This document shows positions 10,767-22,000 of a stretch of 32,185 nucleotides of DNA, in pieces. A program made the position numbers and the translations under genes. The stretch comes from a virus. Location of the stretch: positions 1-32,185 of the IMG/VR virus record IMGVR_UViG_3300036781_000842, one strand, 5' to 3'. Positions within the stretch are counted from its first letter, which is position 1. Each line of letters begins with the position of its first letter. The notes beneath the pieces are model-generated. The model did no database searches. It saw nothing but the letters and a program-made list of their open reading frames with translations, and had not been told where the DNA came from.

Positions 10767-10994
10767 TTAGATATCAATGAGGTCGATCGGCAGATCGCTC
10801 GCCTCGCCCTCGATCACGCCGCCGCGCACGAAGACCGTCTGCCCGACCTCGGCTTGCCCACGGCCCTGCACGAGGCCGCCGCCGGGCAGCTGGATGACCG
10901 CGAGGCTGTCGTCGATCGAGAGCACCACGCCAGCCTGGAGCGCGGGGCCGGCCAACAGGCCCTGCAGGGCCTTCCACGGGTTAAACGTCGTCAT
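10767..10994 (-). CDS. Small tail-tip-associated protein
   Basis: A 75-residue protein. After an N-terminal FNPWKALQGLLAG helix it is a short beta domain: VVLSIDDSLAVIQLPGGGL, VQGRGQAEVGQTVFVRGGVI. This looks like an OB-like or barrel fragment. Its start lies inside the last codons of the 635-aa hub-like protein (14-base overlap), a pairing I recall from related phages, so a tail-tip role is likely. No experimental function known to me. Confidence 0.65.
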   Translation of the reverse strand: MTTFNPWKALQGLLAGPALQAGVVLSIDDSLAVIQLPGGGLVQGRGQAEVGQTVFVRGGVIEGEASDLPIDLIDI

Positions 10995-12888
10995 GGGTTT
11001 CCACTCCGATGGTTTGCCAGATGGTGAGCCGCTCGTCCGCGCGCTCGACTTCGGCCGACGTGCTGCGCACCAGGCCGATGCGCGTCACGCCGCCGTCGAC
11101 GTAGCGCACGAAGTTGCCCGGCGTGATGACACCGGTCTCTTCCAACACGGGCAGGCGCAGCGATACGGCCGCCTGACGGCCCACGTCGGCAAGCACGGGG
11201 ACGGCCCGCTGCCTGGCGCCAACCGCGGCGGTGATGAGCGCGTCGGTCACCATCGGCGCCTCGAGGTCGCCGGCGGTGCCGGTGCGCGTCGCCTGGCCCA
11301 TCCGGCCACTCTTCATGCCGCGCACGAACACGCGGTTGTAGATCGCTTTGTCGGTCCACACGATGCCCTCGCGCTGGACCACGTCGCTCGGAAGCTCGAA
11401 GTCGGGCGTCACGTCGCCCCAGTCCCAAGGCAGGGCTGGATAGCGGCGCAACACGCGCAGGGCCTTGTCCGTGGGATGAGGCTGCACATAAGCGCCGGCG
11501 GCGCCGGCGATCGCGTTGAGTGCGGTGATGTAGGTGCCCTGGTGCAACCACACGTTGGCGGGCACCAGCCAGTCGTCCGGTTGCCATCCCGCGTCCACAT
11601 CCCATCCGATGCTGACGCCGTTGAGCGTGAGCACGTCGTTGGCGAGCTGCTGCACCGTGCGGTCGCCGGTGTTGCCGAAGGTCATGACGGGCGAGTAAGG
11701 CGCATCGAGCACAGCGGCCTTTCCCCGCCCCGTCACGTTGAGATCCGAGCGGCCGAAGACGCGGTCGCGGCTGAGGCCTTCGACGATCGCGCGGTAGGCG
11801 ACGCCGTTGATGGTCGCCTCGACCTCGACAGGCACGCCACCCGTCGGCTGCAGGTCGGGCTCTGCGGCACCAGGCGCGCGCGCCGTGAACCCCCATGTCC
11901 ACGAATCGACGTCGATGGTGAGCGTCATCGCCAGCGTCGGAATCAGCACGTCGCCGTCGACGCGCTTGAGAGTGGCGGAGTTGATCACGGTGTAGATCCT
12001 TCGGACAGGAACGACGACGGTCGAGCCGGGCTCCGGGCCGCCACCCTCGTGCGCTTCGCAGAAGAACACCAGGTTGGTGTCCGCGCTCCATGGCATCTCG
12101 AACACGAGGTCCGTGCTTGGGACATAGCAAGAGTTGTCGGGAGGCACGACGGCCGGTGGGCCGAGATGTGTCCGGCCCGGCCGCGGCTGCACGCATTCCT
12201 GGTAACGATTGCCCCAACCCCGCTGCATGTGCTTGGCAGTGCCCATGAGCGAGAGGTAGGAGCGCTGCAGCGGCGCGGCGTCTTGGTATCGAACCCGGTG
12301 CTGGCCGGCGATCCCGCGGACACCGTCTTGGAAGCGCTGCGCGGTGGCGCGCTGCACGGGCTGGGCGTCCGCGTAGCGCTGGCGGTTGACGTTGGGCGTG
12401 CGACTGGCATCCTGGAACCGCATCTGCGCGACGCGCTGCACCGCGACGCTGTCCTGAAAGCGCGCGCGCAGGGATGGCCGGCGAGTTCGGTCTGAGTCCT
12501 TCCACCGAACCACGAAGCCGGCCTGCCGTGCAGTCGCGTCCTGGAATCGAGCCTCGTGATAGGCCGGCAACCTGCTCGCCTCGCCCCACCTCGCATCGAC
12601 CTCTTCCGACTGCGGCTCGGCGTCCTGCCAGCGCACTCGTGCGTTCGCGACCAGGGGGCGCCGCGTGTCGGTGAAATACTGCACCTCGCCTTCGAGCGTC
12701 GGGCCGACAAGCGTGACCTCCCCGCTCGCAACGATCCCGAGGACGACTTCGCCCTCCAGCGTCGGACCGGCAAGAACGATCTCGCCGCTGATCGTCGCGT
12801 CGCTGACGGTCGAACTGCCGTCGTCGCCGAAGACGAGATCCCCGGTGGTGAGCGGCGGGGCCTGGAAAAGGAGGTCGACTGAGGCCAC
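10981..12888 (-). CDS. Hub-like tail protein with 14-residue tandem repeats
   Basis: A 635-residue protein. Residues 1-75 contain VDLLFQAPPLTTGDLVFGDD and two copies of SGE(I/V)xLxGPTLEGEV. Residues 86-241 are a tandem repeat of 14 residues beginning R-(F/W/Y)-Q-D-A, with starts at R86, 100, 114, 128, 143, 157, 171, 185, 200 and 228. The second DLVFEMP...LVF block follows at ~260. From ~285 to the end is a beta-rich domain resembling phage tail hub proteins, with FGRSDLNVTGRGKAAVLDAP, a LNGVSIGWDVDAG segment, and late RLPVLEETGVITPGNFVRYVDGG. It starts at GTG 12888. It is probably part of the tail tip that contacts or penetrates the host envelope. Confidence 0.75.
   Translation of the reverse strand: MASVDLLFQAPPLTTGDLVFGDDGSSTVSDATISGEIVLAGPTLEGEVVLGIVASGEVTLVGPTLEGEVQYFTDTRRPLVANARVRWQDAEPQSEEVDARWGEASRLPAYHEARFQDATARQAGFVVRWKDSDRTRRPSLRARFQDSVAVQRVAQMRFQDASRTPNVNRQRYADAQPVQRATAQRFQDGVRGIAGQHRVRYQDAAPLQRSYLSLMGTAKHMQRGWGNRYQECVQPRPGRTHLGPPAVVPPDNSCYVPSTDLVFEMPWSADTNLVFFCEAHEGGGPEPGSTVVVPVRRIYTVINSATLKRVDGDVLIPTLAMTLTIDVDSWTWGFTARAPGAAEPDLQPTGGVPVEVEATINGVAYRAIVEGLSRDRVFGRSDLNVTGRGKAAVLDAPYSPVMTFGNTGDRTVQQLANDVLTLNGVSIGWDVDAGWQPDDWLVPANVWLHQGTYITALNAIAGAAGAYVQPHPTDKALRVLRRYPALPWDWGDVTPDFELPSDVVQREGIVWTDKAIYNRVFVRGMKSGRMGQATRTGTAGDLEAPMVTDALITAAVGARQRAVPVLADVGRQAAVSLRLPVLEETGVITPGNFVRYVDGGVTRIGLVRSTSAEVERADERLTIWQTIGVETHDDV
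12165..12633 (-). repeat. Tandem repeat of 42 bases encoding R-aromatic-Q-D-A units
   Basis: About ten units of 42 bases (two are 45) inside the hub-like gene. Each encodes R-(F/W/Y)-(Q/x)-D-(A/S) plus nine or ten variable residues. The arginine, aromatic and acidic positions hold, while the DNA between units is diverged, so this is an old repeat under protein-level selection. One interval of 28 residues (200-228) is a degenerate double unit. Confidence 0.85.
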
Positions 12889-12889
12889 A

Positions 12890-13285
12890 TCAGAACTTGA
12901 ACTTCAGTGCGCCGAGGATCGCGCGCGCGCCGGCATACAGCAGCGTGCCCGTGGTGCCGCTCACCTTCAGCGGGCCATCCCCGGCCATGTCCGATATCGA
13001 GCCGGAGCCGCACAGCACATTCGCGCCGTTGTAAAGCTCGAAGTTGTCGGCGCTGCCCTGCATCGTGATGAAGTCGCCAGTGAGGTCGGCCTGCGCGAAG
13101 ACAAGTTCGTGCGAGACCAACGAGGCCGCAGGCCGCGCAAACACCAGCGTCGTCAACGGCGTCGACGCGGCGTCATAGAGGATTGCGTACGCGGCGAACG
13201 TCGGGTCTGCATCGAGCAGCCCGTCGATGCCACCCGAGAGTTGCGCATCCTTGAATGCTTGAGTTGGAGTCCAGACCGCGCTCAT
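12890..13285 (-). CDS. Hypothetical tail-region protein
   Basis: A 131-residue beta-rich protein. Residues ~25-70 (FAAYAILYDAASTPLTTLVF) and ~95-131 (SGSISDMAGDGPLKVSGTTG) look like a phage tail-associated beta domain. Its ATG overlaps the stop of the preceding gene (ATGA). It sits between another 131-aa protein and the hub-like protein, so a tail-tip role is likely. Unrecognised otherwise. Confidence 0.65.
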   Translation of the reverse strand: MSAVWTPTQAFKDAQLSGGIDGLLDADPTFAAYAILYDAASTPLTTLVFARPAASLVSHELVFAQADLTGDFITMQGSADNFELYNGANVLCGSGSISDMAGDGPLKVSGTTGTLLYAGARAILGALKFKF

Positions 13286-13677
13286 GTGATCAACTCCACA
13301 CCGCCACCGGCGAGCGTGAGACCGTCGGCCACCACGGCGCGGAAACTCTTATCGTGGTCGTAGCTGATAACTGTGTATGTCTCAACCTCGTCGACATAGT
13401 CGAATGAGTAGGCGCCCGTGATTGGCGTGCTCCATATCTCCCGGATCAAAAGCCCGTCGCGCTCGCGATACAGCCGCACCCGTTCGGACACCGGCGCGTT
13501 GGGAGTGCCTTTGTCCTTTGTGGTCCCCTTGACTCGCCCTACCCCTTGGCCGAGCACGCCGGTCAAATAGTCCGCTCGGCCTCGAATAGGAAGGCTTGTC
13601 TCGATCTGTCCGTAGGTGATCGCAACGCTCGTCGCCGACAGACCTCGTATAGCGAAGGACGAAAATGCGGTAGCCAT
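13282..13677 (-). CDS. Hypothetical tail-region protein
   Basis: A 131-residue protein. After an N-terminal FSSFAIRGLSATSVAITYGQ, the segment VSERVRLYRERDGLLIREIW, STPITGAYSFDYVDEVETYT is reminiscent of carboxypeptidase-regulatory-like beta domains used as modules in phage structural proteins. It starts three bases after the fibre-like gene and overlaps the next gene by four bases. The exact function is unknown. Confidence 0.65.
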   Translation of the reverse strand: MATAFSSFAIRGLSATSVAITYGQIETSLPIRGRADYLTGVLGQGVGRVKGTTKDKGTPNAPVSERVRLYRERDGLLIREIWSTPITGAYSFDYVDEVETYTVISYDHDKSFRAVVADGLTLAGGGVELIT

Positions 13678-14911: not shown

Positions 14912-16540
14912 TTACGCGATGGGGTTGTCGACATCGCCGCGCACGATGGTCAGGAACGAATAGTCGGCCGCGCTCTCCGGGCCCTGCTGTACGGTGCGCA
15001 CCATCCAAACGGGGAACATCGCGCCGATCGTGTTGATGCGCTGGATGTTTCCGATCGCCCAGCCGGTGCCCCAGCCGTCGACAGGGATCGTGAAGTAGGG
15101 CTCGCCCGTAATCCCGTTCACGGGCGCGGTGACCGTGTTGATGCTGCCCTCACCGATCACCCCGACGTGCTCGCCAATGATGTCGAAGGTCAGCGTGGTC
15201 TTGAAGCGCAGTGCCCAGTTTTCTGTGAAGGCACCCGCGTTGGTCACCGTGATCGGATAGCCCACGGAGTTGTACGTGCCAAGGGCAGCATTGCCGACAA
15301 GCACGTCCGAGAACGTCACGCCGTCCCACGTCGCTTGGTCGAACGTCAGCGGCACCCGAGCCTTCAAGTCGCCAGTGCGCAGGCAACTGGACACGTAGGA
15401 GCCGACTGGGAAGTCGTGCGTCAACGGCCGAGTGAAGGTGATGGTCCCATCGATCTGCGCGTCGCTCTGCAGGCCCATGTCCTCGATGCGATGCTCGACG
15501 CTCACCGGCTGGGAGTAGCCAGTCACATCCGTGAAGGTAACCGTGCCGGCTTCGAGATCCTCGGTGTAGCCTGTCTCGATGACGTGGGTGTCATGGCCGA
15601 TGACTCGCAGTCGCGACAGCCGAGTCCGGCCAACGTCTATCACGTCATCATCCGCAACGGTTTGCGGCGAGGTAACCGCCGTGTGACCGACGACAGCGAG
15701 ATCGCCTTTGCCGAAGATCGGCACGCGGCCGTCGGTCGGCAGACGCACCGGGTCGATGCCCAGCAAGTCCGCATCGAGCGGCAGATAGGTGAACGCCACA
15801 GCGTTGTAGCGCAGCGTCTCCTGACGGATGAGATCGATGAAGGCCGTTGTCAGCCCGGAGATCTCTAGGAAGGCCAGGCTGGTCGCCACCGCGCCGGCCG
15901 GCGCCGACGGCGTGACGCCCACCAGGGTCACCACGCCCGTGGTGTAGTCGATCCGGCCCTTCACGCGCGGCTGGTCGATGATGCCGTCGCTGTCCGCCGT
16001 GTAGTTGAAGGTGGTGCCGTCCTCCATGGTGCCAAGCACGCTGAAGCTGCCTGTGCGGATCGGCGCGGTCGCGACGCGGAAGGTGATCGCGTAGGTGTTG
16101 AACGGCGTGCCGGCCCCGTTTACCGGCGCGCCGGCAACTCCGCGCCAGTCCGTGACGGCGGGGGCAAGGCCAGACGCCCACGAGGTCAGCGTCACTTCGC
16201 CCTGCTCTGGCGTCAGCGTGCCTACCTTCGTGCCGTTGCCCGTGACCGGCGAGAGATCCACCTGTAAGTCGCCGTTGGCCTTCGACACATAGCGCTTCCC
16301 GCCAGCGGTGAAGCTGACGCCCGAGAGTGAGAACGCGTTGGCGAGGTAGGTCTTCAGGTGCAGCGCGTCCATATCGCCGGCGAGATCGTCCGTGCTGCCG
16401 GACGCGGCCGAATACTTTGCGGCGGCCGAAGTCACGCCGCCGAGCGCCATGGTCAGGGCCGTGCTCACCGCGATCTGCGCGAACGACGAGAGTTCGACCG
16501 CGTTGCCGGTGTCCTCGTAGGGAATAATTACGTTGGCCAT
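14912..16540 (-). CDS. Tail protein with DDG-type beta modules
   Basis: A 542-residue protein with no TM segments. The N-terminus (MANVIIPYEDTGNAVELSSF) is followed by two copies of a beta module also found in the 682-aa neighbour: residues ~74-120 (KRYVSKANGDLQVD ... VGTLTPEQGEVTLTSW) and ~163-206 (FNYTADSDGIIDQP ... GRIDYTTGVVTLVG). The rest is beta-rich, with late segments around RFKTTLTFDIIGEHVGVIGE. AAGGG seven bases before the ATG supports the start. It lies after the 682-aa protein and before the fibre-like gene. A tail-tip or baseplate-like structural role is likely. Confidence 0.7.
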   Translation of the reverse strand: MANVIIPYEDTGNAVELSSFAQIAVSTALTMALGGVTSAAAKYSAASGSTDDLAGDMDALHLKTYLANAFSLSGVSFTAGGKRYVSKANGDLQVDLSPVTGNGTKVGTLTPEQGEVTLTSWASGLAPAVTDWRGVAGAPVNGAGTPFNTYAITFRVATAPIRTGSFSVLGTMEDGTTFNYTADSDGIIDQPRVKGRIDYTTGVVTLVGVTPSAPAGAVATSLAFLEISGLTTAFIDLIRQETLRYNAVAFTYLPLDADLLGIDPVRLPTDGRVPIFGKGDLAVVGHTAVTSPQTVADDDVIDVGRTRLSRLRVIGHDTHVIETGYTEDLEAGTVTFTDVTGYSQPVSVEHRIEDMGLQSDAQIDGTITFTRPLTHDFPVGSYVSSCLRTGDLKARVPLTFDQATWDGVTFSDVLVGNAALGTYNSVGYPITVTNAGAFTENWALRFKTTLTFDIIGEHVGVIGEGSINTVTAPVNGITGEPYFTIPVDGWGTGWAIGNIQRINTIGAMFPVWMVRTVQQGPESAADYSFLTIVRGDVDNPIA

Positions 16541-16548
16541 GCGTGCCC

Positions 16549-18597
16549 TTAAGTCGTGGTCTCGACAGCCCAGTTGGGCTTGTCCTTCAGCAGATAGACG
16601 TTGTCCCAGGCGGTCAGCAGAAGCGCCAACGGCGTCGGTATCACGGTGTTCGCGTTCAACGCGAAGGTGCCTGCCGCGTAGTCGATGGTCCCGACCGCGA
16701 GCAGTGTGTTCAGGAGAACCAGGTTCAGGACGCCTGCGCCGTCGTCGGTGATGCGATAGAGGGCCGGCGCGCCCCAGTCGACGGTGGCCGTGGCGAGGTA
16801 CTTGCCCCGCAACTGCCCCGTCACCGTCAGGTCCACGGACCCAGGGGCGATGTCCGTCACGCCGAAGCTGCCCGAGCCGCTCGCGATGGTGACGGTGGCC
16901 GACGAGAGTTCGGCGGTGCCGGTCGACACGTGGATCGTGGTTCCCGGTGCGGGGATCACGGACGGACTCAGACGGAAGACGCCCTTCGCATAGTCGACGG
17001 GGCCGGTACCGTAGCCCGTGAGATTGCCGGCGCCGTCGTCGGTGACCGTTCGCAGAATGGCGCTGTCGTCTGTCCAGGTGATCGTCAGTTCGCCCGGCAC
17101 GATGCTTTTCGCGCCCGTTTCGAGGCTTGAATCTCCGCTCGTGTTGAAAGGCCAGTAGAGATTGCCGTCGTTGTCGAGCGTCAGCAGTTCACTGGTACGC
17201 GCGGCGTCGGGCTCGACCCACTGGTAGATGATCTGGCTGCCCACATCGGGAAGAGCGCCGAGCGTCACGAGCACGGTCCCGGTTGTCGGGTTCACGGTGC
17301 CCGAGCCGTAGCCGCTGTCCGGCCCGCGAATCGCGCCAGAGCCGTCGTCACTGATCACGTACCAGCGACCGGCGACCAGGTAGGAGATCGACAAGGTGCC
17401 CGGTACGGGCGACGGTTGGATCGTGCGTGCGTAGGAGATCGAGCGCGTCTCGATCTTGACCTTGAAGCCCTGAGACTGCGTGACTGCCGCCGGTGACGAT
17501 GCTGGCTGGTAGGTGACAGTGAAGGTCAGCGAGCCGGTGCCGAAGAGGTTCGTGAGCAGCGACAGGATGCCGTTGTCGTAGTCGACCGTTCCGACCTGCG
17601 TGCCGGCGTTCATCAGACGACCTCCGCTATCGGTGAGCGTCACGTCCCCGTTATTGATCGATAAGGTTTTCGGCGCGATGCCGCCACCGATGAAGAGGTT
17701 CTGCGATGTGGTGAAACCCAGCGTCACGCCCTGCACCACTGCGGTGCCCGATCCAACTACACCGGTCAGCACCTGGTTCGTGCGCGCGTCGCCGATCGGC
17801 GTTTCGATCTGCGCACTCGGGACGAGCTGCGTGAAGATGCCAGTGGCCTTGACGCTGAAGTCCCCGATCGATGCCGCCTCTTCGAGAGGCACCACGCCGC
17901 CGTATTTGGCCGCGTTGGCGACGATCGTCGTGCTCGCCTTGGTCGCGGCGGCAAGTTGCGCCTTGGTCGGGTCGATCCGCGCGGCATCGAAGCCAGGGAA
18001 GTCGGCGCGCAACGGGTCGCTGAGCGTGAGCGTGAGCACGTAGCGCTGGAAATCTCCTGCCGTGTCCGTGAAGGTCGTGAGCACCGCGGACGCGGCCGTC
18101 ACGCGCACATACTGCACGAACTGGTCGCTGAAGCCCTCGCGCTTCGTCAACGCCAGCGTGCTGCCGATCGCCGGCAGCGCGTCAGTACGCTGGATGATGG
18201 CGAGCGCCGCCATGCCTTCGATGTGGTTGCTGTAGAGATAGCCGGCATAGTTCGGCCCGACCGAGAGATAGGCTTCGATGCGCGAGATCGCATCGGCGCG
18301 CAGATCGAAGGTGTCGAGGCCGCTGAAGATGGTGACCGCGACGTTGGGATCGTTGGGCGGCTCGGCCACGATCACGTTGCCGCCCAGGTAGGTGTCGGTG
18401 TCGTCGCTCTGGACCCAGACGTGGACCTTGCGTGCGCTCACTCGGCCGGCGGCGCGGTCGGTCTCCGACACGTCGGGAAAGATCGCGTTGCTCGAACCGT
18501 CGACGACCTCGTTGGAAGTCGGCGCCCCGCCACCTTCGGGCACGTCGTCCATCACCTGGCTCTTCACGAGCTTCACGTCGCCTTTGAGGATGGTCAT
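16549..18597 (-). CDS. Large tail protein with four repeated beta modules
   Basis: A 682-residue protein. Residues ~1-300 form a unique part (with HVWVQSDDTDTYLGGNV and RIEAYLSVGPNYAGYLYSNH). Residues ~310-660 hold four copies of a module: [P]G-x-L-x-[IV], a variable loop, [VI]-[ST]-D-D-G-[AS]-G, then G-T-[VI]-[DN]-Y/x-x-x-G-x-x-x-L. Examples are ISDDGSGAIR...GTVNPTTGTVLVTL and VTDDGAGNLT...GPVDYAKGVFRL. It starts two bases after the previous stop. Tail-tip structural protein by position; the role of the modules is unknown. Confidence 0.7.
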   Translation of the reverse strand: MTILKGDVKLVKSQVMDDVPEGGGAPTSNEVVDGSSNAIFPDVSETDRAAGRVSARKVHVWVQSDDTDTYLGGNVIVAEPPNDPNVAVTIFSGLDTFDLRADAISRIEAYLSVGPNYAGYLYSNHIEGMAALAIIQRTDALPAIGSTLALTKREGFSDQFVQYVRVTAASAVLTTFTDTAGDFQRYVLTLTLSDPLRADFPGFDAARIDPTKAQLAAATKASTTIVANAAKYGGVVPLEEAASIGDFSVKATGIFTQLVPSAQIETPIGDARTNQVLTGVVGSGTAVVQGVTLGFTTSQNLFIGGGIAPKTLSINNGDVTLTDSGGRLMNAGTQVGTVDYDNGILSLLTNLFGTGSLTFTVTYQPASSPAAVTQSQGFKVKIETRSISYARTIQPSPVPGTLSISYLVAGRWYVISDDGSGAIRGPDSGYGSGTVNPTTGTVLVTLGALPDVGSQIIYQWVEPDAARTSELLTLDNDGNLYWPFNTSGDSSLETGAKSIVPGELTITWTDDSAILRTVTDDGAGNLTGYGTGPVDYAKGVFRLSPSVIPAPGTTIHVSTGTAELSSATVTIASGSGSFGVTDIAPGSVDLTVTGQLRGKYLATATVDWGAPALYRITDDGAGVLNLVLLNTLLAVGTIDYAAGTFALNANTVIPTPLALLLTAWDNVYLLKDKPNWAVETTT
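16618..17670 (-). repeat. Repeated beta-module region in the 682-aa tail protein
   Basis: Four diverged modules of roughly 55-75 residues with a shared D-D-G-x-G and G-T-[VI]-x-Y pattern. Two more copies occur in the 542-aa neighbour. This is a protein-level repeat, not a DNA-level one. Confidence 0.7.
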
Positions 18598-18599
18598 TT

Positions 18600-19004
18600 T
18601 TAGACAGTCATGAACTTGAGGGTGACGAGGTAGTAGTCGCTGTCCAGCACGTCGCTGTAGTGCACGACGGGCTTCGCATCGATCGCGGGCTTGTCCTGGT
18701 GGCGGAACATGACGCTGCGGTCGACGCCGCGAAGGTTGAGCGTCATGACCGCACCGGCGATGGCGCCCCAGGCGTTGAGCTGGTCAAGATCGGCGCGGAT
18801 CATCCATGCGCTGTCGTCGCCCTCGGGCTGCAGCGTGATCGGGCGGCCGGGCCGATCGGCATCCCCGTCGACCTGAATGATCAGTGCACCGGTCAAGCCC
18901 TCGTCGACCGATTGCTGCACCGGGCTGTACTGGTTCTCGTCGGCCCAATAGAGATCAGGGTCGAGCGGCAGCGTGTCGTCGCCGTACTTGAGGCTGATGC
19001 TCAT
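18600..19004 (-). CDS. Tail protein downstream of tape measure
   Basis: A 134-residue protein (MSISLKYGDDTLPLDPDLYW start). It is beta-rich, with VDRSVMFRHQDKPAIDAKPV and an end YYLVTLKFMTV. The ATG overlaps the tape measure stop (ATGA). By position it could occupy the place of the distal tail / minor tail protein that follows the tape measure in other siphophages, but no family is recognised. Confidence 0.65.
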   Translation of the reverse strand: MSISLKYGDDTLPLDPDLYWADENQYSPVQQSVDEGLTGALIIQVDGDADRPGRPITLQPEGDDSAWMIRADLDQLNAWGAIAGAVMTLNLRGVDRSVMFRHQDKPAIDAKPVVHYSDVLDSDYYLVTLKFMTV

Positions 19005-22000
19005 GACGACCGCCCCTTCAGGCGGCCGAGCAGATCGACCAGCGTCTTGGCATCGCCTTCGGACCCCATCGTCACCGCGCCGCCGTCGCCACCGGGCAGC
19101 TCGAGCTTCACGTTGTGCGTGGTGCTGCGCTCGGCCGGCGCTGGCTTCTGCAAGCGCGACACGGCTTGTTCGAACTGGGCCAGGGTGCGCTGCCACGCCC
19201 GCGCATCCTCTACCCCTTCTGTCGATTGAAACCCGGCGCTGAGCCGCGACGCGCTGCCGTTGACGGCGTTCTGCTGCTTGAGGGACGCGATGACGGTCTT
19301 CAGCGCGCCAACGTCGTCCGTGCCCAGCGTGCCCTGCTGCAACTTGTCGCGCAGCTGAAACTGGAGGTTGGCATCGACGGCGTTCTGCCCCGCGAGTCGC
19401 TGTTCGCGCGTGTCGCCCGTCACCGACTTGATCTGCTGGTTCGGGCCGATGATGCCGATCGAGTTCTGCGCGTCGCGCGCTTCGGCCGCGTAGGCACGCC
19501 AGGCCTCGCCTGCCCGCTGGAGGCTTTCGATGGTGTTGTGGCCATACTCGTCGGTGCGCAGCTGCACGCCGCGAATGGCGGCCTCGACGACCACCCACGA
19601 AGGGGCGATGCCCTTGTTGGCCGCAATGGCCTCGGTGGCGGTGCGCACGAAGGCGTCGCGCAGCTGATCGGCCGATCCCTGCCCGCTCGACTTCAGCGCA
19701 TCGTAGGCGTCTTGTGAGGCGGTCGCGGCCCGCTTGAGCGCCGCCTCGGTCTGCAATCCGAAGAACTGGAACGCCTCGGCCGTGCTCTGGATCCCGGGCT
19801 TGAGGTTTTCCAGCTTGAGCTTCAGTTCGTCCGCCTTGGCGGATGCCTGTTGCAACAAGCCGTCGGCGACCTTGTTGCCCAGCTGCGCCCGCATGGCCTC
19901 GATCTGCGCTTCAACCGCTTCCAGGGCCTTCTGCGTGTCGGCCGTATCGATGCCCTTGGTGAGGCTGGCCGACAGCGCCAGGCCGGTGTCGATGCCCTGC
20001 GACTTCAGGCGGTCGAGCGACTCGATGATGGCGTCGGTGTCGTTGATCGCGCTGCGCGAGGCCTTGCCGATGCCCCCGGCCAACACGTCGTACTCGAGCC
20101 CTGACCGGCGGATGGCCTCGCGTGCCGTGCCGTCGAGCACGGCGGCCATGCGTTCGGCCTCGCGCGAGGCGCCGGCAAATGCCGCCCGCGCGCGCGTCTC
20201 GAAGACGGCCAGATCCTCGCCCTTGAGTGCCTCGGCCCATGAGGCCTGGAACTGGGCCGTCGTGATCTTGGCGGCGGCCAGCAGCTTGTCCAACACGGCG
20301 CCGGCATTCTTGATCCCGGGCACGCTGGCGAGGTCGAAGTCCTTGCCGATCTTGCCGATTGCCTCGGCGGCGCTGTCGCCGTTCAGCCGTAGCTGGTCGA
20401 ATTTGGCGATGGCGCCGGCGGCTTCCTTCGATAGCTCAAACTGCCTGTCGCGCGCCTGTTGCAGCGCGATGTTCATCACCCGCAGCTGCGCGGCGTTCGA
20501 TTTCGTGGCCTCTTCCTGGAGGCGCATCTTGTCTTCGGCGTCCTGGATGGCCTTGCCGTAGCCCGACCACTTGGCGACGCCCTCGCCCAGCGAACGGCCG
20601 ATGCCGACGATTTCGGGCGCCAGCGAGGCCAAGACGATGCCCACCGGCCCGAGCAGGCCGCTGAAGCGCCCGAGCACGCTGCCGGCGGCGGCGATCTTGC
20701 CGGCGCCGGCCACCGCGCTGGTGGCGGCGCCGGCTCCCGCGGCGGCGCTCGCCCGAGCTGCAGCGGCGTTTGCGGCGTGCGCGACAGTGTTGGCCTCCAC
20801 CGCGACCGTGTTGGACTGCACCGCGGCCGTCGCGCCGGCCGTGGCGGTGGCCCATTTGTAGACATCGACCGCGAGCCCGGCGATCTTGATCGCGGCCCAC
20901 GCCTTGCCGGCGGCGTAGAGGCCGGCCACCAGCGTGTCCAGGTTCTTCGCCAGGCCGTCGATGATCTTGGCGACGTTGGCGCTCGACGCCATGCCGTTGT
21001 CGGCGGCGCCGACGTACAGCGTCCACTGCGTCTTCAGGTTCTGCAAGGACCGGCCGACCGTAGACGGCAACTGGTTGAACTCGGCCGCCACGGCCGCCGA
21101 CTGCGTGGTGAGTGACTTGATGACGGTCGCACTGGTGAGCGCGCCCTGCTCTGCCAGCTTGCGCAGCTCGCCCGTCGTGACGCCGAGGCCTTGCGCCAGG
21201 GCCTGCGCGAGGCGCGGCGCCTGTTCCATCACCGAGTTGAACTCGTCGCCGCGCAGCACGCCGGATTGCAGGCCTTGGATCAGCTGCACGATCGCCGCAT
21301 TCGACGCCTCGGCCGAGCTGCCCGAGAGCTGCACTGATTGGTTGATCGTCTCCGTCAACGCCAGGGATTGCTGCTGTGCGTCGCTCGCCGACAGCCCGGC
21401 CTGCTGTCCGGCCTGCGCGATGCGCACGAAAAGAGTACCCGTCGATTCCAGCGAGCTGTTGGTCTTCAGGGCGATGTCGGTAACGCCCTGGAAGGAGGTC
21501 TTGAACGCATCGCCTTCCCCGGTCGCCAGCTTGATCCGGGCCTGCAGGTTCTTGAATTCGTCGGCCGTGTCGGCCACGTCCTTGATCGCGCCGCCGAGGA
21601 AGCTGCCGCCGATAGCGATGGCAGCAATCGACTGGATCTTGCGCAGCTCGTCGCCGATGGACTTGACGCCATCGCGCACGGTGCGCTGGTCGGCGATCTG
21701 GCGCTGCGCGGCGCCGTTCGACGCCGCCGCAGCCTGCGCGAAGGCGGGCGCCAGGCCGAGCACGCGCTGGCGCACCTCGCCGATCGCGCCCTCCAGGTTG
21801 CGCTCGCTCTGCGCGAGTTCGGTGGTCTGGATACCGAAGCCCTGCAGACTCGTGCGCGCAGCGTTGAGGGCCGTGGCGTTGTCCTGTACAGCGCCGCGCA
21901 TGCGGATCGCCGACTCGGCCGCGGTGGTGTAGTCGGTGGCGAGTTTCTTTTCGGCGACGCCGGCGGCGGCCGTCGCGGACACCGAGGTCTTCAGTTCGTC

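Follow-up and report, generated by a model that had tools for sequence, protein, structure and literature searches.

In the structures of Mu gp44 and T4 gp27, the hub fold is found from the first residues of the chain. Another organization has been described for the distal tail protein gp49 of phage JBD30, which contains two tube-like domains and, as its N-terminal domain, a long loop that wraps tail fibres (PMC11445458). The protein investigated in this study, encoded in a 32,185-nucleotide stretch of viral DNA (IMG/VR record IMGVR_UViG_3300036781_000842, in the following termed the window), differs from the Mu and T4 proteins in that about 300 residues precede its hub, among them a regular array of aromatic boxes.

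The gene is located on the minus strand (10981-12888), where a GTG start opens a reading frame of 635 amino acids that matches the profile of PHROG 6079 over its full length (E 2.5e-124, profile positions 4-603 of 605 against residues 4-632), while a match to PHROG 1887 (E 3.6e-13) is confined to the hub in the C-terminal half. Both entries carry only the name 'tail protein' and the repeat is found in neither description. In an AlphaFold2 model of the monomer based on 92 homologues, the pLDDT rises above 90 at about residue 301, and the confident region that begins there and extends to residue 632 defines the hub domain (residues 297-635, 10984-12000, minus strand). Its comparison by VIA yielded Z-scores of 19.8-22.3 for the best-matching hub proteins and of about 16-22 across Mu gp44, T4 gp27 and VgrG hubs, with values of 19.8-21.1 for the chains of Mu gp44 (294-299 aligned residues at an rmsd of 3.5-4.1 Å) and 17.8 for T4 gp27, and a Foldseek search likewise returned hubs of the Mu gp44/T4 gp27/VgrG type. 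We are thus confident, on the basis of the predicted model, that the C-terminal 335 or so residues form a hub of the Mu gp44/T4 gp27 type, which agrees with the original prediction of a tail hub protein with a hub-like C-terminal domain and is borne out by both the PHROG 6079 and the VIA match. By analogy to its fold family, this hub would be a trimeric ring of pseudo-six-fold symmetry. Since the fold match, which starts at about residue 301, begins at residues 1-4 of Mu gp44, the preceding arm is best described as an added N-terminal element.

The most pronounced feature of this arm is a tandem pattern between residues 86 and 241 (12166-12633, minus strand), which emerges from motif counts, the alignment of homologues and covariation. 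Ten boxes of the form R[FWYH]x[DE] start at residues 86, 100, 114, 128, 143, 157, 171, 185, 200 and 228, at intervals of 14, 14, 14, 15, 14, 14, 14, 15 and 28 residues, and a degenerate unit, LMGTAKHMQRGWGN, fills the last of these intervals, thus completing eleven slots whose ring columns are residues 87, 101, 115, 129, 144, 158, 172, 186, 201, 215 and 229. When the region was shuffled, it contained on average 0.30 such motifs with a maximum of 4 in 20,000 shuffles, and the autocorrelation of residue identity, which peaks at 14, 28/29, 43 and 57, exceeds that of each of 5,000 shuffles. The previously noticed period of about 14 residues in about ten units is therefore real and its coordinates had been placed correctly to within one base. 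At the DNA level, the units share a mean identity of 43% and Tandem Repeats Finder detected no DNA repeat over the array, which together rule out a recent tandem duplication; in light of this low identity, the array is, as judged from sequence, an old repeat that persists at the protein level.

The constancy of this pattern became evident in its comparison across relatives collected from viral contigs, bacterial contigs and phage records, the distant ones with single-protein queries, from which 177 non-redundant arms were retained and aligned with the window. Eleven slots recur in these homologues, with neighbouring slots separated by 14 or 15 residues in nearly all rows of the alignment and a span from slot 1 to slot 11 of 140-146 residues in 89% of the 177. 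The proposal that the array would constitute a strap whose length varies with the number of units, for which a comparison of copy number among relatives had been suggested, is thus contradicted by a unit number that is fixed at eleven slots. The slots are even present in a part of the homologues that can be aligned by BLAST in the hub only, and the phages bearing the array infect many proteobacteria. As the aligner could favour such a register, the raw sequences of distant relatives were scanned for chains of rings, and chains of about nine to twelve, above those of shuffled sequences, were found in Stenotrophomonas phage S1, in Acidovorax ACF1, and in proteins of Cupriavidus, Hydrogenophaga, Pseudomonas, Pseudoalteromonas and Vibrio/Shewanella type, with HS6 likewise showing a chain of about eleven rings. 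In the raw sequence of the protein of Marinobacter phage AS1 (L025 3137-5044), the hub domain is present and no 14-residue ring period is detectable, and the ring chains of uncultured phage LR797314, of Psychrobacter Y8A and of a small number of further relatives do not rise above the best shuffle. The AS1 protein contains boxes of a W-x-x-V-P type at other spacings. An alignment-free estimate of the span between anchors gave scattered values, as loose anchors misfire, and was set aside.

Within the slots, the conservation is unevenly distributed. Across all cells of the family alignment, the ring position is occupied by F, W, Y or H in 78%, with histidine contributing 19% of cells, an A or G is found at position +3 in 73% and a Q at +1 in 56%, compared to only 36% for D or E at +2 and 34% for R or K at -1. 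Of the arginine, aromatic and acidic residues that had been proposed as the conserved core, only the aromatic thus holds, and a core of arginine and acid is ruled out by these frequencies. The family-wide constraint, as it emerges from the alignment, is a planar ring followed by a small residue at +3 and often by a glutamine at +1, and the R-F-Q-D-A box is a local form of this looser rule in the subclade of the window.

A second pronounced property of the array concerns the alternation of its slots. In the alignment of the 177 arms and the window, the ring columns of the six odd slots are each 81-97% aromatic, and the fraction of F, W and Y amounts to 0.51-0.89 in odd compared to 0.32-0.47 in even slots. 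Covariation of equivalent positions is strongest at a lag of 28 residues (z of 10, compared to 4.5 at 14, 1.7 at 42 and 4.2 at 56, values that do not translate into probabilities as the sequences are related), and it is larger at lags of 56 and 84 than at 42 and 70. Given the stronger conservation of the odd slots and the maximum of covariation at this lag, the deeper period inherent to these sequences is one of 28-29 residues, and the odd slots of the window itself follow each other at intervals of 28, 29, 28, 29 and 28. The coupling at lag 28 is in register, with the ring and positions +1, +2 and +3 ranking on top, and it mostly concerns pairs of the same phase, with clear flanking contacts being absent. 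Since units of the same protein that are two apart are also more similar at positions outside of the box, part of this signal may reflect an exchange between units rather than contact.

Despite its regularity, the arm is not assigned a defined structure. Within the full-length model obtained from 92 sequences, its pLDDT ranges from 28 to 60 with no assigned helix or strand, and a model of the arm alone, whose calculation had been advised with the original prediction, was obtained from 98 sequences and shows a mean pLDDT of 55 and equally no assigned secondary structure. These low values can possibly reflect a fold that is missed by AlphaFold2 if the trimer or a partner is not included. None of the 98 arms matched a Pfam family at an E-value of 0.01, a profile search of the PDB with the arm matched none of the solved chains, and a search of the literature found no described 14-residue tail repeat, in line with the earlier statement that no described family with such a repeat was known to its author. 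The hub is therefore of a well-known kind, whereas the fixed eleven-slot arm appears undescribed within the Pfam, PDB and literature searched. It represents an aromatic ladder of invariant length in the tail hubs of a widespread group of siphophages, among them phages that infect Acidovorax, Pseudomonas aeruginosa, Stenotrophomonas and Vibrio/Shewanella hosts. This ladder may serve as a sequence signature for the annotation of hubs whose N-termini show no detectable sequence similarity, and it leads to concrete predictions on what holds such tail tips together.

A conserved and regular pattern of fixed length that lacks a predicted fold of its own suggests extended binding to a partner that repeats at a fixed step. 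We thus favour, with a probability of about one half, a function of the array as an N-terminal strap of fixed length on a trimeric hub, which would dock at regular steps on partners in the tail tip. In such a mechanism, the C-terminal 335 or so residues would make up the ring of the hub where the tail tube ends, and the arm would probably run in extended conformation over neighbouring tail-tip proteins, offering every 14-15 residues a box consisting of a flat ring, often followed by a glutamine, and a small residue at +3. With strong odd boxes that recur at a distance of 28-29 residues and weaker even boxes between them, the chain gives the impression of switching back and forth between two faces, or between sites of two kinds. 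The surface of the partner would in turn repeat at a fixed step and with a fixed extent, because the number and spacing of the slots hardly vary while other residues do. Of the original prediction, a strap or partner-binding surface is thus retained as best reading, and its variable length is not. A resemblance is found in JBD30 gp49, whose two tube-like domains are preceded by N-terminal regions, one of them the long fibre-wrapping loop, although the loop domain described there comprises 73 residues and the part of the description considered here contains no 14-residue aromatic array (PMC11445458). It is by analogy to this loop that the strap is proposed. The gp49 protein is absent among the matches listed in our sequence and fold searches, which by itself does not exclude homology. 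The lack of a detectable 14-residue period in AS1, which has the hub, speaks against the strap. A more specific version, in which each of the six strong boxes docks on one of six equivalent sites of the tail tip with the weaker ones bridging between them, and in which the count is fixed by closure on a six-fold or pseudo-six-fold partner, is speculative, and we consider it quite unlikely.

The features that suggest a strap would in part also be expected if the arm folded on itself or trimerized. In this case, it could form a beta repeat of five and a half turns, each comprising about 28-29 residues, where rings and small residues of slots of the same parity are stacked and the whole would stand on the hub as a rigid rod or knob. 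In fibres consisting of beta-solenoids or triple beta-spirals, short units recur regularly and their equivalent positions stack. Self-stacking would account equally well for the in-register coupling at exactly lag 28, and it fits the alternation of strong and weak slots and the fact that changes in length that are tolerated per step are usually of one residue only. However, unlike in such fibres, the arm of the window has no predicted strands and resides on a hub rather than in a fibre protein. The predominance of same-phase pairs, the similarity of non-box positions at lag 28, for which exchange is as good an explanation as contact, and the frequent substitution of the ring by histidine further argue against it. 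Since neither of the two AlphaFold2 models contains strands in the arm, albeit at low confidence and with a monomer prediction being insufficient to dismiss them, the beta repeat loses weight relative to the strap, and we regard it as the principal alternative, possible though somewhat unlikely.

If the array acts as a strap, its candidate partners would be sought among the products of neighbouring genes, which points to phrog_6128/9261, phrog_9600/9998 and the receptor-binding cassette. Proteins of phrog_6128/9261 are encoded upstream of the hub in all phages checked, including those with distant arm-bearing hubs. In the window and in ACF1, phrog_6128 is matched jointly by two adjacent reading frames (in the window 16549-18597 and 14912-16540, minus strand), which in Curvibacter phage PCA1 are combined in a single one of 1139 residues. 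The phrog_6128 pieces contain several beta-domain motifs of the form G-x-(I/V)-(D/N)-Y-x-x-G, and no 14-residue aromatic period was found in the three largest neighbouring proteins tested. A protein of 131 residues (13282-13677, minus strand) with a phrog_27013 domain is a candidate adaptor. The same domain forms the C-terminus of proteins of 488 and 654 residues in ACF1 and PCA1, which bear a ConA-like lectin and a SPRY annotation, respectively, and the window seems to contain an exchangeable adsorption cassette reduced to its minimum. The cassette beside the hub is variable: ACF1 and Y8A have a ConA-like lectin there, PCA1 has a protein annotated as SPRY, and an uncultured phage has FG-GAP repeats.

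This arrangement bears on the possibility that the boxes themselves constitute a repeated surface for the binding of carbohydrates or the cell envelope during adsorption. Flat rings beside glutamine and acidic residues are common in sugar binding, and such residues adjoin in the array, which is carried by a protein of the tail tip. In contrast to adhesive surfaces that track their host, the number and spacing of the boxes are fixed over many proteobacterial hosts and it is the separate lectin, SPRY or FG-GAP cassette that looks like the adsorption module, which renders sugar binding by the array unlikely and a role as adsorption surface improbable. Least probable in our view is a flexible linker derived from repeats, with little function of its own and maintained by duplication and exchange of units, as the arm without confident structure and units whose similarity within one protein exceeds expectation at every position, above all between units two apart, might suggest, since the length of neutral linkers varies, whereas here the slot number does not drift and the ring and A/G columns are held despite the low DNA identity between units.

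The array is flanked by further elements of the arm. Close to its N-terminus, phi-L-x-F motifs form a first pair (DLLF...DLVF, residues 5-21, 12826-12876) that recurs at the N-termini of homologues and is followed by a duplicated beta-like block, SGE(I/V)xLxGPTLEGEV (residues 34-48 and 55-69, 12682-12789), which substantiates the short N-terminal duplication noticed earlier. The copy number of this block varies among homologues from 1 to 4 or more, whereas the adjoining aromatic array is fixed. The conserved Tyr 71 (12676-12678), located 16 residues ahead of slot 1, is aromatic in 84% of 178 rows. Behind the array, a PG/CY linker leads to a second phi-L-x-F pair (DLVF...NLVFFCE, residues 260-277, 12058-12111), with all these elements being encoded on the minus strand.

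The gene itself is part of a structural cassette of ordinary type on the minus strand, which includes terminase, portal, protease, major head protein, major tail protein and tape measure genes, the latter followed by phrog_4408, the two phrog_6128 reading frames, phrog_9998, two small genes and then the hub. The match to phrog_4408 covers only residues 208-332 of the reading frame at 18600-19598, which as listed exceeds the likely gene, and translation probably initiates at an internal ATG that lies after the tape measure gene. Overlapping with the 3' end of the hub gene is a reading frame of 75 residues (10767-10994), possibly for a small protein of a cap or spike-like type, and at the equivalent position ACF1 carries a gene for 72 residues with a match to phrog_5076.
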